Shown here in pieces: positions 27,962-40,243 of a DNA stretch of 47,719 bases. Positions within the stretch are counted from its first letter, which is position 1. Each line of letters begins with the position of its first letter. The DNA comes from Caulobacteraceae bacterium (GTDB lineage: Bacteria > Pseudomonadota > Alphaproteobacteria > Caulobacterales > Caulobacteraceae), in the NCBI GenBank assembly GCA_028290905.1, contig JAQGIW010000076.1, positions 1 through 47,719 of the forward strand, written 5' to 3'. The notes under the pieces are model-generated. The model made no database searches. It was not told the origin of the DNA and saw only the letters and a list, made by a program, of their open reading frames with translations. The position numbers and the translations under genes were made by a program.

Positions 27962-29305
27962 ATGCCTGCCCACGCCCGCCCGCCCCATTATGGACTTTTG
28001 CTTCTCGGAGCGTACGCGGGGGCGCTGTCGCTCGCGCCGATGACGGCGGCGGCGAAGCCGCGTGAGGGCGTGGAGGCCCGGCTGAAGCGGATCAACGCGC
28101 TGCTGGCGGCCCAGGCGCTGCGCATCCAGCAACAGGAAGACCGCCTGGCCGCCGAGGAGCGGGAGATCGCGCGCCAGCGGGCCGAGCTGGCCGAACTGCG
28201 GGCGCGGCAAGCGGCCCCGCCCCAGAACCAGGCTGCGGCGGGCGTGGTGGCGCCTCCCCTCCCGAGCGCTGCCCTGGCCCAGAACGCCGCCCCGCCGCCT
28301 CCCCCGACCCCGGCGCCGAGCGGACCTACGGCCGCCCTGCCCGCCAGGCCGGTGGGCCAGGCGCCCGAGACCAACATCAAGCCCGTCGTCCTGGCCTCCA
28401 TCCCGCAGAACCTCGGGGTGCTGACGCCCCGCCATCACTTCGTCTTCGAACCGGGCGTCGAATACGACCGGGTGGGAACCAACCGCCTCGTCTTCGAGGG
28501 CGTGGAGATCGTGCCCGGCCTCCAACTCGGACTCGTCAACGCCAATTCGGTCGCCGCCGACGTGGTGATCGGCACCGCCGACCTGCGCTACGGCGTGACC
28601 AACCGCCTCGAGCTCGAGGCCAAGGTCCCCTATTTCTACAACCACGACCGGCTGACATTCATCGCGCAGCAGGTGACCACCGGGGCGCCGCCGGTGAACA
28701 TGACCACCAACCTTCAGGGCTACAGCCTGGGCGATGTGGAGTTCGCCGCACGCTACCAGATCAACCGGGCCCAGGAGGGCAAGCCCGTGTGGATCGCCAG
28801 CCTGCGAGCGCGCGCCGACACCGGGATCGGTCCTTACGACGTCCACTTCAACAGCTCGGGAATCGCCACCAGCCTTCCCACCGGCTCCGGTTTCTGGGGA
28901 GTGGAGCCGGGCATGACCATGCTGCTGCCCATCGACCCGGTGGTGCTGTTCGCCAACGCGGGCTACATGCGCAACTTCCCCGGAAACGTGAACAAGACCA
29001 TCGGCTTGACGCATGTCGGCCATGTTTCGCCCGGAGATTCCGTGGACACCAGCTTCGGCTTCGCCTTCGCCCTCAATCCCAGCTTTTCCTATTCCCTGGG
29101 CTTTTCCAACAGCTACATCTTCGGCGCCAGCCAGCAGCTGAACGCGACGGTCCTGCATTCGAACGACCTGGAGGTCGGCTCTCTCACGCTCGGCCTCTCT
29201 TTTCGGGTTCGCCGGAACCTGCTCCTGACGACCAACCTGCAGTTCGGCGTCACCCCGGACGCGCCCAATCTGCAGGTGATCTTCCGAATGCCACTCTCGT
29301 TCTGA
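27962..29305 (+). CDS. FapF-like outer membrane beta-barrel protein with N-terminal coiled coil
   Basis: Signal-like N-term; coiled coil GVEARLKRINALLAAQALRIQQQEDRLAAEEREIARQRAELAELRARQ; Pro-rich linker; barrel GVLTPRHHFVFEPGVEYDRVGTNRLVFEGVEIVPGLQLGLV...ADLRYGVTNRLELEAKVPYFYNHDR. Confidence 0.8.
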   Translation: MPAHARPPHYGLLLLGAYAGALSLAPMTAAAKPREGVEARLKRINALLAAQALRIQQQEDRLAAEEREIARQRAELAELRARQAAPPQNQAAAGVVAPPLPSAALAQNAAPPPPPTPAPSGPTAALPARPVGQAPETNIKPVVLASIPQNLGVLTPRHHFVFEPGVEYDRVGTNRLVFEGVEIVPGLQLGLVNANSVAADVVIGTADLRYGVTNRLELEAKVPYFYNHDRLTFIAQQVTTGAPPVNMTTNLQGYSLGDVEFAARYQINRAQEGKPVWIASLRARADTGIGPYDVHFNSSGIATSLPTGSGFWGVEPGMTMLLPIDPVVLFANAGYMRNFPGNVNKTIGLTHVGHVSPGDSVDTSFGFAFALNPSFSYSLGFSNSYIFGASQQLNATVLHSNDLEVGSLTLGLSFRVRRNLLLTTNLQFGVTPDAPNLQVIFRMPLSF

Positions 29306-29326: not shown

Positions 29327-29866
29327 TCAGTGGGTGACCGCGCCGAGAGTGGCGGCGTTCAGGCCGCTGGACAGGCCGGCGCTGGTCTGGAACATGGCCG
29401 CCGACCGGCTCAGTTGGGTGAAGTTGGGGAGCACCAGGTTCACGGCGGTGTCCTGCCGGATCACCTTGTTGCTCGCGGTGTTGATCACCAGGTTGAGAAG
29501 TTGGTTCCCGGAGACGCCCTGCGCCAGGGTCACCGCTCCACCCAGGCTGAACGCCCCGCCGGCCGCCAGGCCCAGGCGCGCCGCCAGCGCGGGGTCCGCA
29601 GCGGTCAGGCCTGGACCGGCGGTGGTGAGGCTGGCGATGGCGCCGTTGTCGCCGAGGGTCAGGGTCGTGAGCAGTGCGAGGCGGCCGTCGACATAGGTTT
29701 TCTCCACCGCGCCGAAGCCGAAAGTGATCCCGCCGGCGGTCACGAACCCCCCACGGACATCGTCCAGCTCCGCATCGCTCATCGGCGTGGCGGCAGGAAC
29801 GCTCGCCGCCACGCCCACGGCCAGGGTGGCGGCGACCATCCACGCCCGCCGCGCCAGCGCCCTCAT
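29327..29866 (-). CDS. exported protein with double-glycine-like motif, Fap-type locus component
   Basis: Signal peptide ...LAVGVAASVPAATPMSDAELDDVRGGFVTAGG; C-term GNQLLNLVINTASNKVIRQDTAVNLVLPNF. Confidence 0.7.
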   Translation of the reverse strand: MRALARRAWMVAATLAVGVAASVPAATPMSDAELDDVRGGFVTAGGITFGFGAVEKTYVDGRLALLTTLTLGDNGAIASLTTAGPGLTAADPALAARLGLAAGGAFSLGGAVTLAQGVSGNQLLNLVINTASNKVIRQDTAVNLVLPNFTQLSRSAAMFQTSAGLSSGLNAATLGAVTH

Positions 29867-30582
29867 CGCGTCGCTCCCAGTTGGGTCACCTGGAACAGGG
29901 GTGGCGTCTCCACCACCAGGTCCAACTCCGGCGGGGTGAGCGCCGTCGCCATCGGGGGCGGCGCCCTGAAGCGCCACTCTTCCGGTCGGTTGAAGGCGCC
30001 GCGGGCGCCGCCCTCGTCGTGGATCATGAAGACGATGTGTCCCCAGACCTTCTCGAAATCTCCGCGCGAGTAGATCTTCACGCCGCTGGCAGGGTCGCCG
30101 ACCAGCACCTCCCCGGGGCGCACGCCCTTGATGACGACGAAGTGCTTGTACGGTCCGATGCTGATCACGGCGATCGACGGCGCCTGGATTTTCAGTAACT
30201 CGTCGTAGCCGAGCCTGTAACCATCGGGCTTGAAGCCCTGGTTGGCGAGGTATGTCTTCATGTCCAGGAGGGAGAAGCCGACCTTCTGGATCTTGGCCTG
30301 ATCGCCGGCGGCGTACATGGCGCGAAAGACCTGCGCCTCGCCGACATCCCGGCCGTAATGATAGCGCAGCAGGGTGGCCACCGCGGCCGATCCGCAACTG
30401 TAATCGTACCTCTGGCGCAGCACCGCGCGGAACGGGATGTCGCGATAGGTCGTGACCGGCAGGCTATACGCTCCCCTCACGCCCTCGATCGCGATCTGCG
30501 CGTGGCCGGCCGCCGACAGCGCGCACAAGGCCATCACGCTCGCCGCCAGGCCGATATCCCGATCCGCCCTGCGCCCGGCCAT
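29863..30582 (-). CDS. periplasmic C39-family cysteine peptidase (FapD-like)
   Basis: Signal peptide; Q...YDYSCGSAAVATLLRYHYG (Q/Cys), YKHFVVIKGV (His), VGDPASG (Asp); no ABC transporter domains. Confidence 0.88.
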   Translation of the reverse strand: MAGRRADRDIGLAASVMALCALSAAGHAQIAIEGVRGAYSLPVTTYRDIPFRAVLRQRYDYSCGSAAVATLLRYHYGRDVGEAQVFRAMYAAGDQAKIQKVGFSLLDMKTYLANQGFKPDGYRLGYDELLKIQAPSIAVISIGPYKHFVVIKGVRPGEVLVGDPASGVKIYSRGDFEKVWGHIVFMIHDEGGARGAFNRPEEWRFRAPPPMATALTPPELDLVVETPPLFQVTQLGATR

Positions 30583-30586
30583 GTCT

Positions 30587-30991
30587 TCAGCGCAGCGGCG
30601 TCACGGTGACGCTGAGGCTGCCCTGCAGGATATTGTTGTTGCCGGTGTTGATGACGAAATTGCCGATGCCGTTGAACCCCTGCAGGGCTCCGGCTTCGAA
30701 CGACACCGCCCCCGTCTGGACGTTGGCGGCCGAGATCGAATTGCCGCCGTCGGACGCCGTCAGGGTCTGGGCCGTTATCGCCATCGGCGTGGGGCTCTGT
30801 CCGGCGCTCACCGCGTCAAGCTGCGCCTCGTCCATGACGGCCGGCGCCCACCAGGGCGCCATCGGCCGCGCGCCCGAGGACGCATTCGACGACAAGGGGG
30901 CGGCGCCGCCAGGGGCCGCGGTCGCCGCGCCCGCGATGAGGAACAGAGCGAGCACCCCGATCGCGGAAGCTTTTTCGAGATTGAGCAACAT
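30587..30991 (-). CDS. small exported protein, Fap-type locus component
   Basis: Signal peptide MLLNLEKASAIGVLALFLIAGAATAA; MDEAQLDAVSAGQ; C-term GIGNFVINTGNNNILQGSLSVTVTPLR. Confidence 0.7.
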   Translation of the reverse strand: MLLNLEKASAIGVLALFLIAGAATAAPGGAAPLSSNASSGARPMAPWWAPAVMDEAQLDAVSAGQSPTPMAITAQTLTASDGGNSISAANVQTGAVSFEAGALQGFNGIGNFVINTGNNNILQGSLSVTVTPLR

Positions 30992-31067: not shown

Positions 31068-31883
31068 TCAGTGGCCGAAGGTGATGTTCGCATTGGCCGA
31101 CAGCGACGTCGCCGCCTGGCTGGCGGAGCCGATGCCGGTGTTGTTGCTCACTGTCTGAATGCCGGCGAAGGCTGCGGAGCCGCTGTTGCCGGTGCTGATG
31201 GCGCCGGTCGTCACGCTGCCGCTGGAGTACGAGCCGGGGCCGACCGGCGCGCCGGTCACCGTGGCCGAGAGATCCTCCCACGAAAGGCTGGCGGTGATGA
31301 CGTTGTTGGAGTCCGTCGTCGTGTTGTTCGAGTTCGTGTCTGTATGCGTGTGCGTCGAGGTGTCGTTGTAAGACCAGTTGTACGAACCGTTGGTCGAGTT
31401 GTTGGGGTTGTATGAATCGTTGGTAGAGTTGTTGGTGTGATCGTCCGTATTCGTCGTGGTCGTCGTGTTCGTCGTGTCATTTACGGTTTTACTGTGTGTG
31501 TTGTACGAGCCGTTGGTAGAGTGATCAGAGTTATCAGCGGTCTTTGTTGTCGTGTTGTTGGAATTCTTAGTCAAGGTGTTATTGGAATCGTTTACCGAAT
31601 TATCTGTTTTGGTGATTGTTTTGTTGTCTGTTTTAGTATTGTAGGAGTCGTTGGTTGAGCTGTCCGTCTTGGTGAGGGTCTTGGTGTTTTTGGAGTCATT
31701 GGTTGAATTGTCCGTCTTGGTGACGGTCTTCGTGTTGTTGGAGTCATTCGTCGAATTGTTGTTGTAAGAACTATTCGTCGAATCGTTTGTCGTGGTCGTC
31801 GTCGGGGTGGCCGCCATGGCGACACCAAATAGCCCGCAGCTCAACACGACGGCGGACGCTGAGGCTAGAAAATGGACCCGCAT
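31068..31883 (-). CDS. secreted Asn/Thr/Ser-rich repeat protein, FapB/FapC-like putative amyloid subunit
   Basis: Signal peptide MRVHFLASASAVVLSCGLFGVAMA; 16-aa repeats STNDSNNTKTVTKTDN / STNDSKNTKTLTKTDS; C-term AAFAGIQTVSNNTGIGSASQAATSLSANANITFGH. Confidence 0.75.
   Translation of the reverse strand: MRVHFLASASAVVLSCGLFGVAMAATPTTTTTNDSTNSSYNNNSTNDSNNTKTVTKTDNSTNDSKNTKTLTKTDSSTNDSYNTKTDNKTITKTDNSVNDSNNTLTKNSNNTTTKTADNSDHSTNGSYNTHSKTVNDTTNTTTTTNTDDHTNNSTNDSYNPNNSTNGSYNWSYNDTSTHTHTDTNSNNTTTDSNNVITASLSWEDLSATVTGAPVGPGSYSSGSVTTGAISTGNSGSAAFAGIQTVSNNTGIGSASQAATSLSANANITFGH
31302..31793 (-). repeat. degenerate 48-bp tandem repeats encoding N/T-rich segment
   Basis: Repeating GTTGGAGTCATTCGTCGAATTG / TTGGTGACGGTCTTCG modules; + strand is G/T-rich and C-poor. 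Confidence 0.75.
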
Positions 31884-32150: not shown

Positions 32151-32945
32151 TTGTTGGATCGGGGCCGAGAAATGCCGACACTTCGAGTCGATGTGCTAGA
32201 ACGAGGGCGACCACGGCCTGCCATCGACAGATATGTCCCGAGCGGCCGTAACCATCTACTTCGTGTGGCTAGCGCGGACGATCTCGCGCTGCTCTCGCCG
32301 CATCTGAGATCCGTCGATCTGCCTGCCCGCAGGATTCTCGAGCGTCCTGGCGAGCCGATCGAACAGGTCGTATTCCTGGAGGGCGGCGTCGTCTCCGTCG
32401 TCGCCCGCGCCGCCGGCGGCCGCCACATTGAGGCCGGGTTGATCGGCTTCGAGGGAATGACGGGAATCTCCGTGGTGATGGGCGATGACCGCTCGACCCA
32501 CGAGTCTTCGGTCCAGGTGGCGGGCCGCGGCGCCGGCATCGCCGCGGACGCCCTGCGCAAGGCGATGGGCGCCAGCGTGACCCTCCGCGCCATGCTTCTG
32601 CGGTACGTGGAAACCTTCATGATCCAGACTGCCCACACCGCCCTCGCCAACGGCCGCGGCACCATCGAGGAGCGCCTGGCGCGGTGGCTGCTGATGGCCC
32701 AGGACCGCCTGGGCGGCAGCCAGTTGCCCCTGACCCATGACTTGCTGGCCCTGATGCTCGGTGTTCGCCGCGCGGGCGTGACCGACGCCGTCCACCGGCT
32801 GGAGGGCGAGGGCGTCATTCGCGCGCGAAGGGGCCTTATCCTGGTGAGGGACCGGGGCCGGCTGGAGGCCGTGGCCGGCGGCGCCTACGGCGGCCCGGAG
32901 CAGGAGTACCGCCGCCTCCTGGGCGGTTGGCCGATCGGTTACTGA
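32151..32945 (+). CDS. Crp/Fnr family transcriptional regulator
   Basis: Cyclic-nucleotide-binding-like domain LERPGEPIEQVVFLEGGVVSVV...; HTH LTHDLLALMLGVRRAGVTDAVHRLEGEGVIRARRG; GGGGAGG SD before TTG start (alternative ATG 32172). Confidence 0.9.
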   Translation: MLDRGREMPTLRVDVLERGRPRPAIDRYVPSGRNHLLRVASADDLALLSPHLRSVDLPARRILERPGEPIEQVVFLEGGVVSVVARAAGGRHIEAGLIGFEGMTGISVVMGDDRSTHESSVQVAGRGAGIAADALRKAMGASVTLRAMLLRYVETFMIQTAHTALANGRGTIEERLARWLLMAQDRLGGSQLPLTHDLLALMLGVRRAGVTDAVHRLEGEGVIRARRGLILVRDRGRLEAVAGGAYGGPEQEYRRLLGGWPIGY

Positions 32946-40158: not shown

Positions 40159-40231
40159 CCAAAGCGAAACGATCTGGCAAAGCGAAGCGATTGGGCAAAG
40201 CCAATCGATCCGGCAAAGCCAAAACGATTTG
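40159..40231 (+). repeat. four imperfect tandem repeats of about 18 bp
   Basis: CCAAAGCGAAACGATCT / GGCAAAGCGAAGCGATTG / GGCAAAGCCAATCGATCC / GGCAAAGCCAAAACGATTTG. Confidence 0.85.
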
Positions 40232-40243
40232 GGAGGAAGCGCG

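Follow-up and report, generated by a model that had tools for sequence, protein, structure and literature searches.

Among described systems, the Fap amyloid export system of Pseudomonas (FapA-F) is the closest to the locus studied here. In Pseudomonas sp. UK4, the catalytic Cys of FapD is required for secretion and FapE is the sole Fap protein with complete N-terminal processing; published mass spectrometry found no processing of FapA-D (PMC5557850). The target of FapD is stated to be unknown in the Fap literature, the Fap proteins being without canonical C39 sites (PMC5557850). The linkers of FapC, 35-259 aa in length, are not part of the cross-beta core and make the fibril softer (PMC12392863); their place outside the amyloid core is also documented in PMC6173800, and PMC3792158 provides further backing for this linker behaviour. 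FapA is the component most often missing from accepted Fap operons (PMC6173800). Dueholm et al. found that the FapD and FapF models match two larger protein families, and in 2013 a large number of FapD- and FapF-like matches were excluded as non-Fap (PMC3792158). Rouse et al. described fapD-fapF pairs in further phyla (PMC6173800).

The window (the whole stretch of DNA analysed, 47,719 nucleotides) holds a five-gene cluster composed of ORF1, ORF2, a stand-alone C39 peptidase, ORF4 and a FapF-like porin. The features of the locus are the following:

31071-31883, minus strand: ORF1, 271 aa (stop codon 31068-31070), with orthologues that have a variable array and a conserved module
31812-31883, minus strand: Sec-type signal peptide of ORF1, MRVHFLASASAVVLSCGLFGVAMA, judged by eye
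31314-31811, minus strand: Asn/Thr-rich array of ORF1 with a 16-aa period, a predicted disordered hydrophilic linker (shuffling, length variation)
31071-31313, minus strand: C-terminal module of ORF1, a candidate fibre-forming unit (orthologue alignment, ORF2 homology)
30587-30991, minus strand: ORF2, with a signal peptide, a propeptide with a double-glycine-type leader and a single module, GIGNFVINTGNNNILQG
30800-30841, minus strand: leader of ORF2, AVMDEAQLDAVSAG, predicted C39 cleavage after the last G (P = 0.007 by shuffling)
29863-30582, minus strand: stand-alone FapD-like C39 cysteine peptidase with an N-terminal signal-like sequence (Pfam PF03412, E = 2e-19)
29327-29866, minus strand: ORF4, a secreted protein with a canonical double-glycine leader and a FapE-like N terminus
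29747-29788, minus strand: leader of ORF4, TPMSDAELDDVRGG, predicted C39 cleavage after GG (position counts, matrix)
27962-29305, plus strand: FapF-like outer-membrane porin with an N-terminal coiled-coil-like region (NCBIfam FapF, E = 2e-37)
32151-32945, plus strand: Crp/FNR-type regulator, divergent from ORF1 (Pfam HTH_Crp_2, E = 3.5e-14)

The ORF2, C39 and ORF4 genes nearly abut one another downstream of ORF1 on the same strand, and the porin gene is convergent. Between ORF1 and the divergent regulator there is no FapA-like gene. By its position, the Crp/FNR-type protein is a possible regulator of the cluster. Regulators near other loci differ (e.g., a LuxR-like gene in L003), and regulation may vary. 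The peptidase matches the NCBIfam models FapD (E = 4e-40) and FilB (2e-33), and its active-site Cys, His, Asp and Gln are invariant columns of the family alignment. The porin matches the FapF entries 5o65, 5o67 and 5o68 of the PDB over the barrel (E about 1e-28), and its N-terminal region appears heptad-like by eye. Neither protein comes near its Fap equivalog cut-off (137 vs 330 bits for the peptidase and 129 vs 700 bits for the porin), and the FilB match also stays below the cut-off. A Pfam search returned no match for ORF1 or ORF2. Elsewhere in the window, an 18-bp unit is repeated four times at 40160-40232 (78% match), and a gene on the plus strand at 36625-38817 matches a Pfam peroxidase in two stretches, which fits a catalase-peroxidase.

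ORF1 is single-copy in the genome. The original prediction described an Asn/Thr-rich array of 16-aa repeats in its product at 31302-31793, almost free of Ala, Leu and Gly. This array is real and slightly longer than predicted, spanning residues 25-190 (166 residues; 31314-31811 in the window). Its self-match score was highest at a lag of 16 aa (44; the top score among 1000 shuffles was 27), which rules out chance repeats arising from composition. Thr (51), Asn (39), Ser (24), Asp (17) and Lys (11) make up 86% of the array, and Ala, Leu and Gly occur just twice each. Tandem Repeats Finder, one of the checks proposed with the prediction, detected 2.5 copies of a 48-bp unit (31639-31759, 86% match) and two copies of a 30-bp unit (31377-31435). 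The remaining C-terminal part of ORF1 (81 residues) has an ordinary composition and carries the module motif F-A-G-I-Q-T...N-T-G...Q...A-N-A-N-I-x-F. The predicted AT-rich dip and G/T-rich plus strand were likewise recovered: GC content in the array is 0.48 compared to 0.65-0.75 around it, the plus strand has a strong excess of G and T, and A and C make up 40% and 33% of the coding strand. At the three codon positions, GC is 0.19/0.49/0.71 in the array and 0.48/0.64/0.93 in the module, third positions of the array being somewhat low (0.71 vs about 0.9). These patterns arise mainly because Asn, Lys and Thr are encoded by AAN and ACN. Since the protein sequence accounts for the oddity, an independent element of strand composition was ruled out.

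The array was also expected to expand and contract, and comparisons of close relatives bear this out. Two Ectothiorhodospira mobilis genomes have modules that are 99% identical and arrays that differ by about 50 residues when counted from the common start MLNFKK (L068 and L084), and whole DNSNNS units separate the arrays of two close Phenylobacterium orthologues (L013 and L020). Across loci, ORF1 ranges from about 170 to 1,130 aa, with ORF2 and the C39 peptidase being far more constant in length. The sequence of the array is not conserved among orthologues, which only keep its polar, N-rich character, and in some of them (e.g., Caulobacter CCUG 60055, L033/L003) the array is very short and the module intact. 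On these alignments, the conserved unit of ORF1 is the module and not the array.

ORF2 carries a homologue of the ORF1 module (hhalign 89.9%, E = 1.7e-6), with reversed and shuffled controls near null. Genuine Fap loci, retrieved with the FapD model, served for comparison. A module profile derived from ORF2 alone placed 12 of 13 FapB proteins above the 95th percentile of their shuffled copies, and the combined module profile placed all 13 there. Similarity to FapC was weak, the combined profile placing 4 of 14 proteins above the 99th percentile of their shuffled copies. The alignment of ORF2 with FapB repeats was collinear over 37 columns (P about 2e-4) and its reversed control was null. This weak but collinear relationship between module and FapB repeats is supportive, not conclusive. 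The module motif is related to the FapB repeats and is not the consensus GN-x-GN-x2-AG-x2-NQQ-x-N, and at most one module was detected in each ORF1 of the family. Searches of PDB sequences with the module profiles gave no credible match, and AlphaFold2 models had low confidence (pLDDT of 42 for full ORF1 and 53 for the ORF2 module). One of the Fap loci (L118, genome G264) carries two tandem fapB-C-D-E sets beside one fapF, an apparent duplication of the Fap operon.

Double-glycine leaders of bacteriocins follow the consensus L-12, S-11, E-8, L-7, G-2, G-1. A leader of this type follows the signal peptide of ORF4 and is near-invariant among 54 non-redundant orthologues, of which 51 have L or M at -7, all 54 have G-2 and 51 have G-1 (three rows were misplaced by the site search). 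We built a search matrix from the ORF4 leaders and obtained P values by shuffling. Between the signal peptide and module of ORF2, the matrix recovered a leader in 41 of 60 non-redundant orthologues at P<=0.01 and in 51 of 60 at P<=0.05, compared to a random-ORF background of 10/150 and 18/150, respectively. C39 proteins gave 0/44 matches and porins 2/44, the latter near background. The leader was recovered in 12 of 12 non-redundant FapE proteins at P<=0.01 (e.g., IELKDQELATLRG/R and RELSDSELGQQRG/R), where the motif takes the form RG/R or RG/K (the slash marking the putative cut) at the place corresponding to the leader of ORF2 and ORF4. Furthermore, the N termini of ORF4 and FapE are in register (profile alignment, 91.6%) over the leader and roughly the next 20 residues. 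The mature parts of the two proteins gave no alignment on their own, and the similarity is carried by the leader region. Because the ORF4/ORF2 family keeps GG, the motif is clear here and points to RG/R or RG/K as a candidate cleavage site for FapD, a prediction from sequence. Leader cleavage of ORF1 was dropped as a candidate, its best match in the window falling inside the module and enrichment in the family being modest (13/52 at P<=0.01). A leader in FapA was rejected given its weak score and the mass spectrometry mentioned above.

We scanned 85,462 species genomes with an alignment of the C39 peptidase, which yielded 80 loci; the 77 that were fetched were analysed. Note that the loci were collected via the C39 gene, whose presence is by construction, and that the presence of the other four genes is not. 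ORF starts were set by a mechanical rule and signal peptides recognised by eye, and some loci derive from metagenome bins whose labels are doubtful. Profile maps recovered ORF1-ORF2-C39-ORF4-FapF in most loci wherever the contig was long enough. The loci belong mainly to Alpha-, Beta- and Gammaproteobacteria, and also to deltaproteobacterial lineages, with hosts that include Phenylobacterium, Asticcacaulis, Caulobacter, Brevundimonas, Sphingopyxis, Ectothiorhodospira, Aromatoleum, Massilia, Lysobacter and Geobacteraceae. Two C39 genes from contigs titled Verrucomicrobia (L026) and Akkermansia (L082) cluster inside Caulobacteraceae and with Cupriavidus/Luteimonas, respectively, and these contigs are probably misbinned. 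Within the 77 loci there are 37 ORFs rich in N/T/S/D, 35 of which lie directly upstream of ORF2 on the same strand; the other two overlap ORF2 slightly (-124 and -162 bp) and miss the distance limit, probably through the choice of ORF start. Plasmid records that hold a complete cluster exist for Cupriavidus metallidurans CH34 (L124), Croceicoccus (L125) and Polymorphobacter (L127). In the Croceicoccus and Polymorphobacter plasmids, the N/D/T/S-rich proteins are annotated as hypothetical beside a C39 family peptidase (the Croceicoccus record reads hypothetical protein, C39 family peptidase, transporter). Three relatives in the same family as the window genome (G029, G020 and G018) also carry this cluster, and the sequences recur in the records of Asticcacaulis taihuensis (L016), Caulobacter CCUG 60055 (L033) and Caulobacter 17J65-9 (L019), which puts the window in Caulobacteraceae. 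Distribution is patchy: none of the 15 other genomes of the genus had a match to ORF1, and of 150 genomes of the order, about 12 have a stand-alone FapD-like peptidase.

We consider it likely that ORF1 is a secreted fibre subunit encoded in a Fap-like cluster and that the array forms its disordered, hydrophilic N-terminal extension of variable length. ORF1, ORF2 and ORF4 would reach the periplasm by Sec, where the C39 peptidase would cut the propeptides of ORF2 and ORF4 at the double-glycine-type leaders. Subunits would then exit via the FapF-like porin, and on the surface the modules of ORF1 and ORF2 may stack into a cross-beta fibre, the N/T-rich tails making up its outer brush in the manner of FapC linkers. 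The array is probably a linker or brush and the conserved module the fibre unit, a reading that follows from the low aggregation score of the array, its length variation and its likeness to FapC linkers. The original prediction took the polar repeats as a sign of a functional amyloid. An amyloid setting is supported by the FapD and FapF homologues in the cluster; the implied role of the N/T repeats as the amyloid-forming part is not supported by the aggregation scores or by their unconserved sequence, and FapC linkers offer a better parallel. That the array would itself be the amyloid core, stacking through Asn/Thr ladders, strikes us as decidedly unlikely. The array is N-rich, of low complexity, tandemly repeated and sits within a Fap-like cluster, and N-rich stretches are generally able to form amyloid, but its predicted aggregation is low (-0.58 vs -0.05 for the module, on the AGGRESCAN scale), and D and K recur every few residues. 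Its unconserved sequence and its very short length in some orthologues with an intact module also speak against a core. The same scale gave means of -0.53 for the N-terminal regions and -0.11 for the modules of 29 orthologues.

ORF1 could instead be a surface adhesin or stalk protein that does not form fibres and leaves through the FapF-like porin, with the array as a (possibly O-glycosylated) spacer and the module as an anchoring or capping domain. Surface proteins often contain Ser/Thr-rich spacers, and the Fil-type clusters, which have the same pair of C39 peptidase and porin, carry the annotation of a putative pilus system and not of an amyloid. We regard this explanation as unlikely given that the module is common to ORF1 and ORF2 and resembles FapB repeats. 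An N-glycosylated version of the stalk was ruled out, as the genome has no STT3 and bacterial sequons are at the level of shuffled sequences (2 vs 1.7 expected). The leader and the peptidase are both of bacteriocin type, and the sole family match of ORF4 was to a bacteriocin model (weak, E = 0.076), which would fit ORF2 and ORF4 as microcin-like peptides and the cluster as a bacteriocin exporter. It is very improbable that they are: the proteins have Sec-type signal sequences, the C39 domain lies outside any ABC transporter, the porin is FapF-like, ORF2 has its module in common with the large ORF1, and there is no apparent immunity gene. The fibre subunit with a disordered, length-variable extension is the interpretation we retain for ORF1.

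By its sequences, the cluster is a widespread, unnamed one resembling the Pseudomonas Fap amyloid export system. The literature searched, largely open-access papers, contained no description of the N/D/T/S-rich ORF1/ORF2 substrate family. Low-complexity proteins rich in N/D/T/S are usually left as hypothetical, and here they mark a coherent secretion cassette, which may explain part of the FapD- and FapF-like matches put aside as non-Fap in 2013 (PMC3792158). In turn, the candidate site in FapE makes the published question of the FapD target testable. We give an even chance to a more general proposal, according to which pairs of a stand-alone periplasmic C39 peptidase and a FapF-like porin share one rule: Sec export, followed by a cut at the double-glycine-type leader [LV]-[SD]-x-x-E-L-x-x-x-x-G-[GRKQ]. 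The cut would occur at GG in ORF2 and ORF4, at RG/R or RG/K (or just after the second residue) in FapE of Fap, and perhaps at TGQ in DUF6160 of Fil. If true, this shared two-step rule would group these systems into one broad class of secretion, with the N/D/T/S-rich proteins as one of its substrate families.

Phylogenetic analysis of 76 C39 domains resolved three groups, Fap (100/98), Fil (100/99) and the window family (94/92). The window peptidase falls in a Caulobacteraceae-rich group (99/91) outside the Fap and Fil clades. The putative Fil pilus system of Acinetobacter (FilA-F, DUF6160) likewise has a C39 peptidase and a FapF-like porin, next to a first gene whose secreted product bears a leader-like motif (QSMDDAALSGVTGQ). 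In contrast to the cluster described here, Fil has DUF6160 substrates, a FadL-type protein in its cluster, no N-rich array and a separate C39 clade; no FadL-type gene is present in the window cluster. Loci L121 and L126 are clusters of Fil type, with DUF6160 in Pseudomonas, the corresponding ORF in A. baumannii, and their own C39 peptidase and FapF-like porin. Their first genes carry, in the order listed, the leader-like sequence QSMDDAALSGVTGQ (L121, 5296-5748, minus strand) and QSMDDAALSAATGQ (L126, 4655-5521, plus strand) after the signal peptide. The processing of bacteriocin and microcin leaders by peptidase-containing ABC transporters shares the C39 protease fold and positions E-8, L-7, G-2 and G-1 with the present cluster, but here the leader comes after a Sec signal, the peptidase is stand-alone and apparently periplasmic, and the substrates are larger and fibre-like. 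The array resembles the FapC linkers L1 and L2 in being polar, repetitive, length-variable and outside conserved repeats, and true FapC proteins with such polar repeat linkers were also recovered (an S/D-rich repeat linker in L115 and an N/T-rich N-terminal stretch in L123). Unlike those linkers, the ORF1 tail does not alternate with repeats and stands ahead of a single module, and it can approach 1,000 aa. The cluster would work much as Fap does yet is not filed as Fap, because the multi-repeat subunits by which Fap is recognised are not found and the scores lie below the equivalog cut-offs. It differs in having one module per subunit (about three repeats in FapB and FapC), no FapA upstream, a porin that is usually convergent, a separate C39 clade, C39 and porin scores far below those cut-offs, a canonical GG in ORF4 in place of the GR/GK of FapE, and a leader in ORF2 as well. 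With Fap it shares the gene order of subunits, C39 peptidase, FapE-position protein and porin, a homologous peptidase and porin, a FapB-like module, a large subunit with variable polar linkers, and a FapE-type leader motif at the same place.
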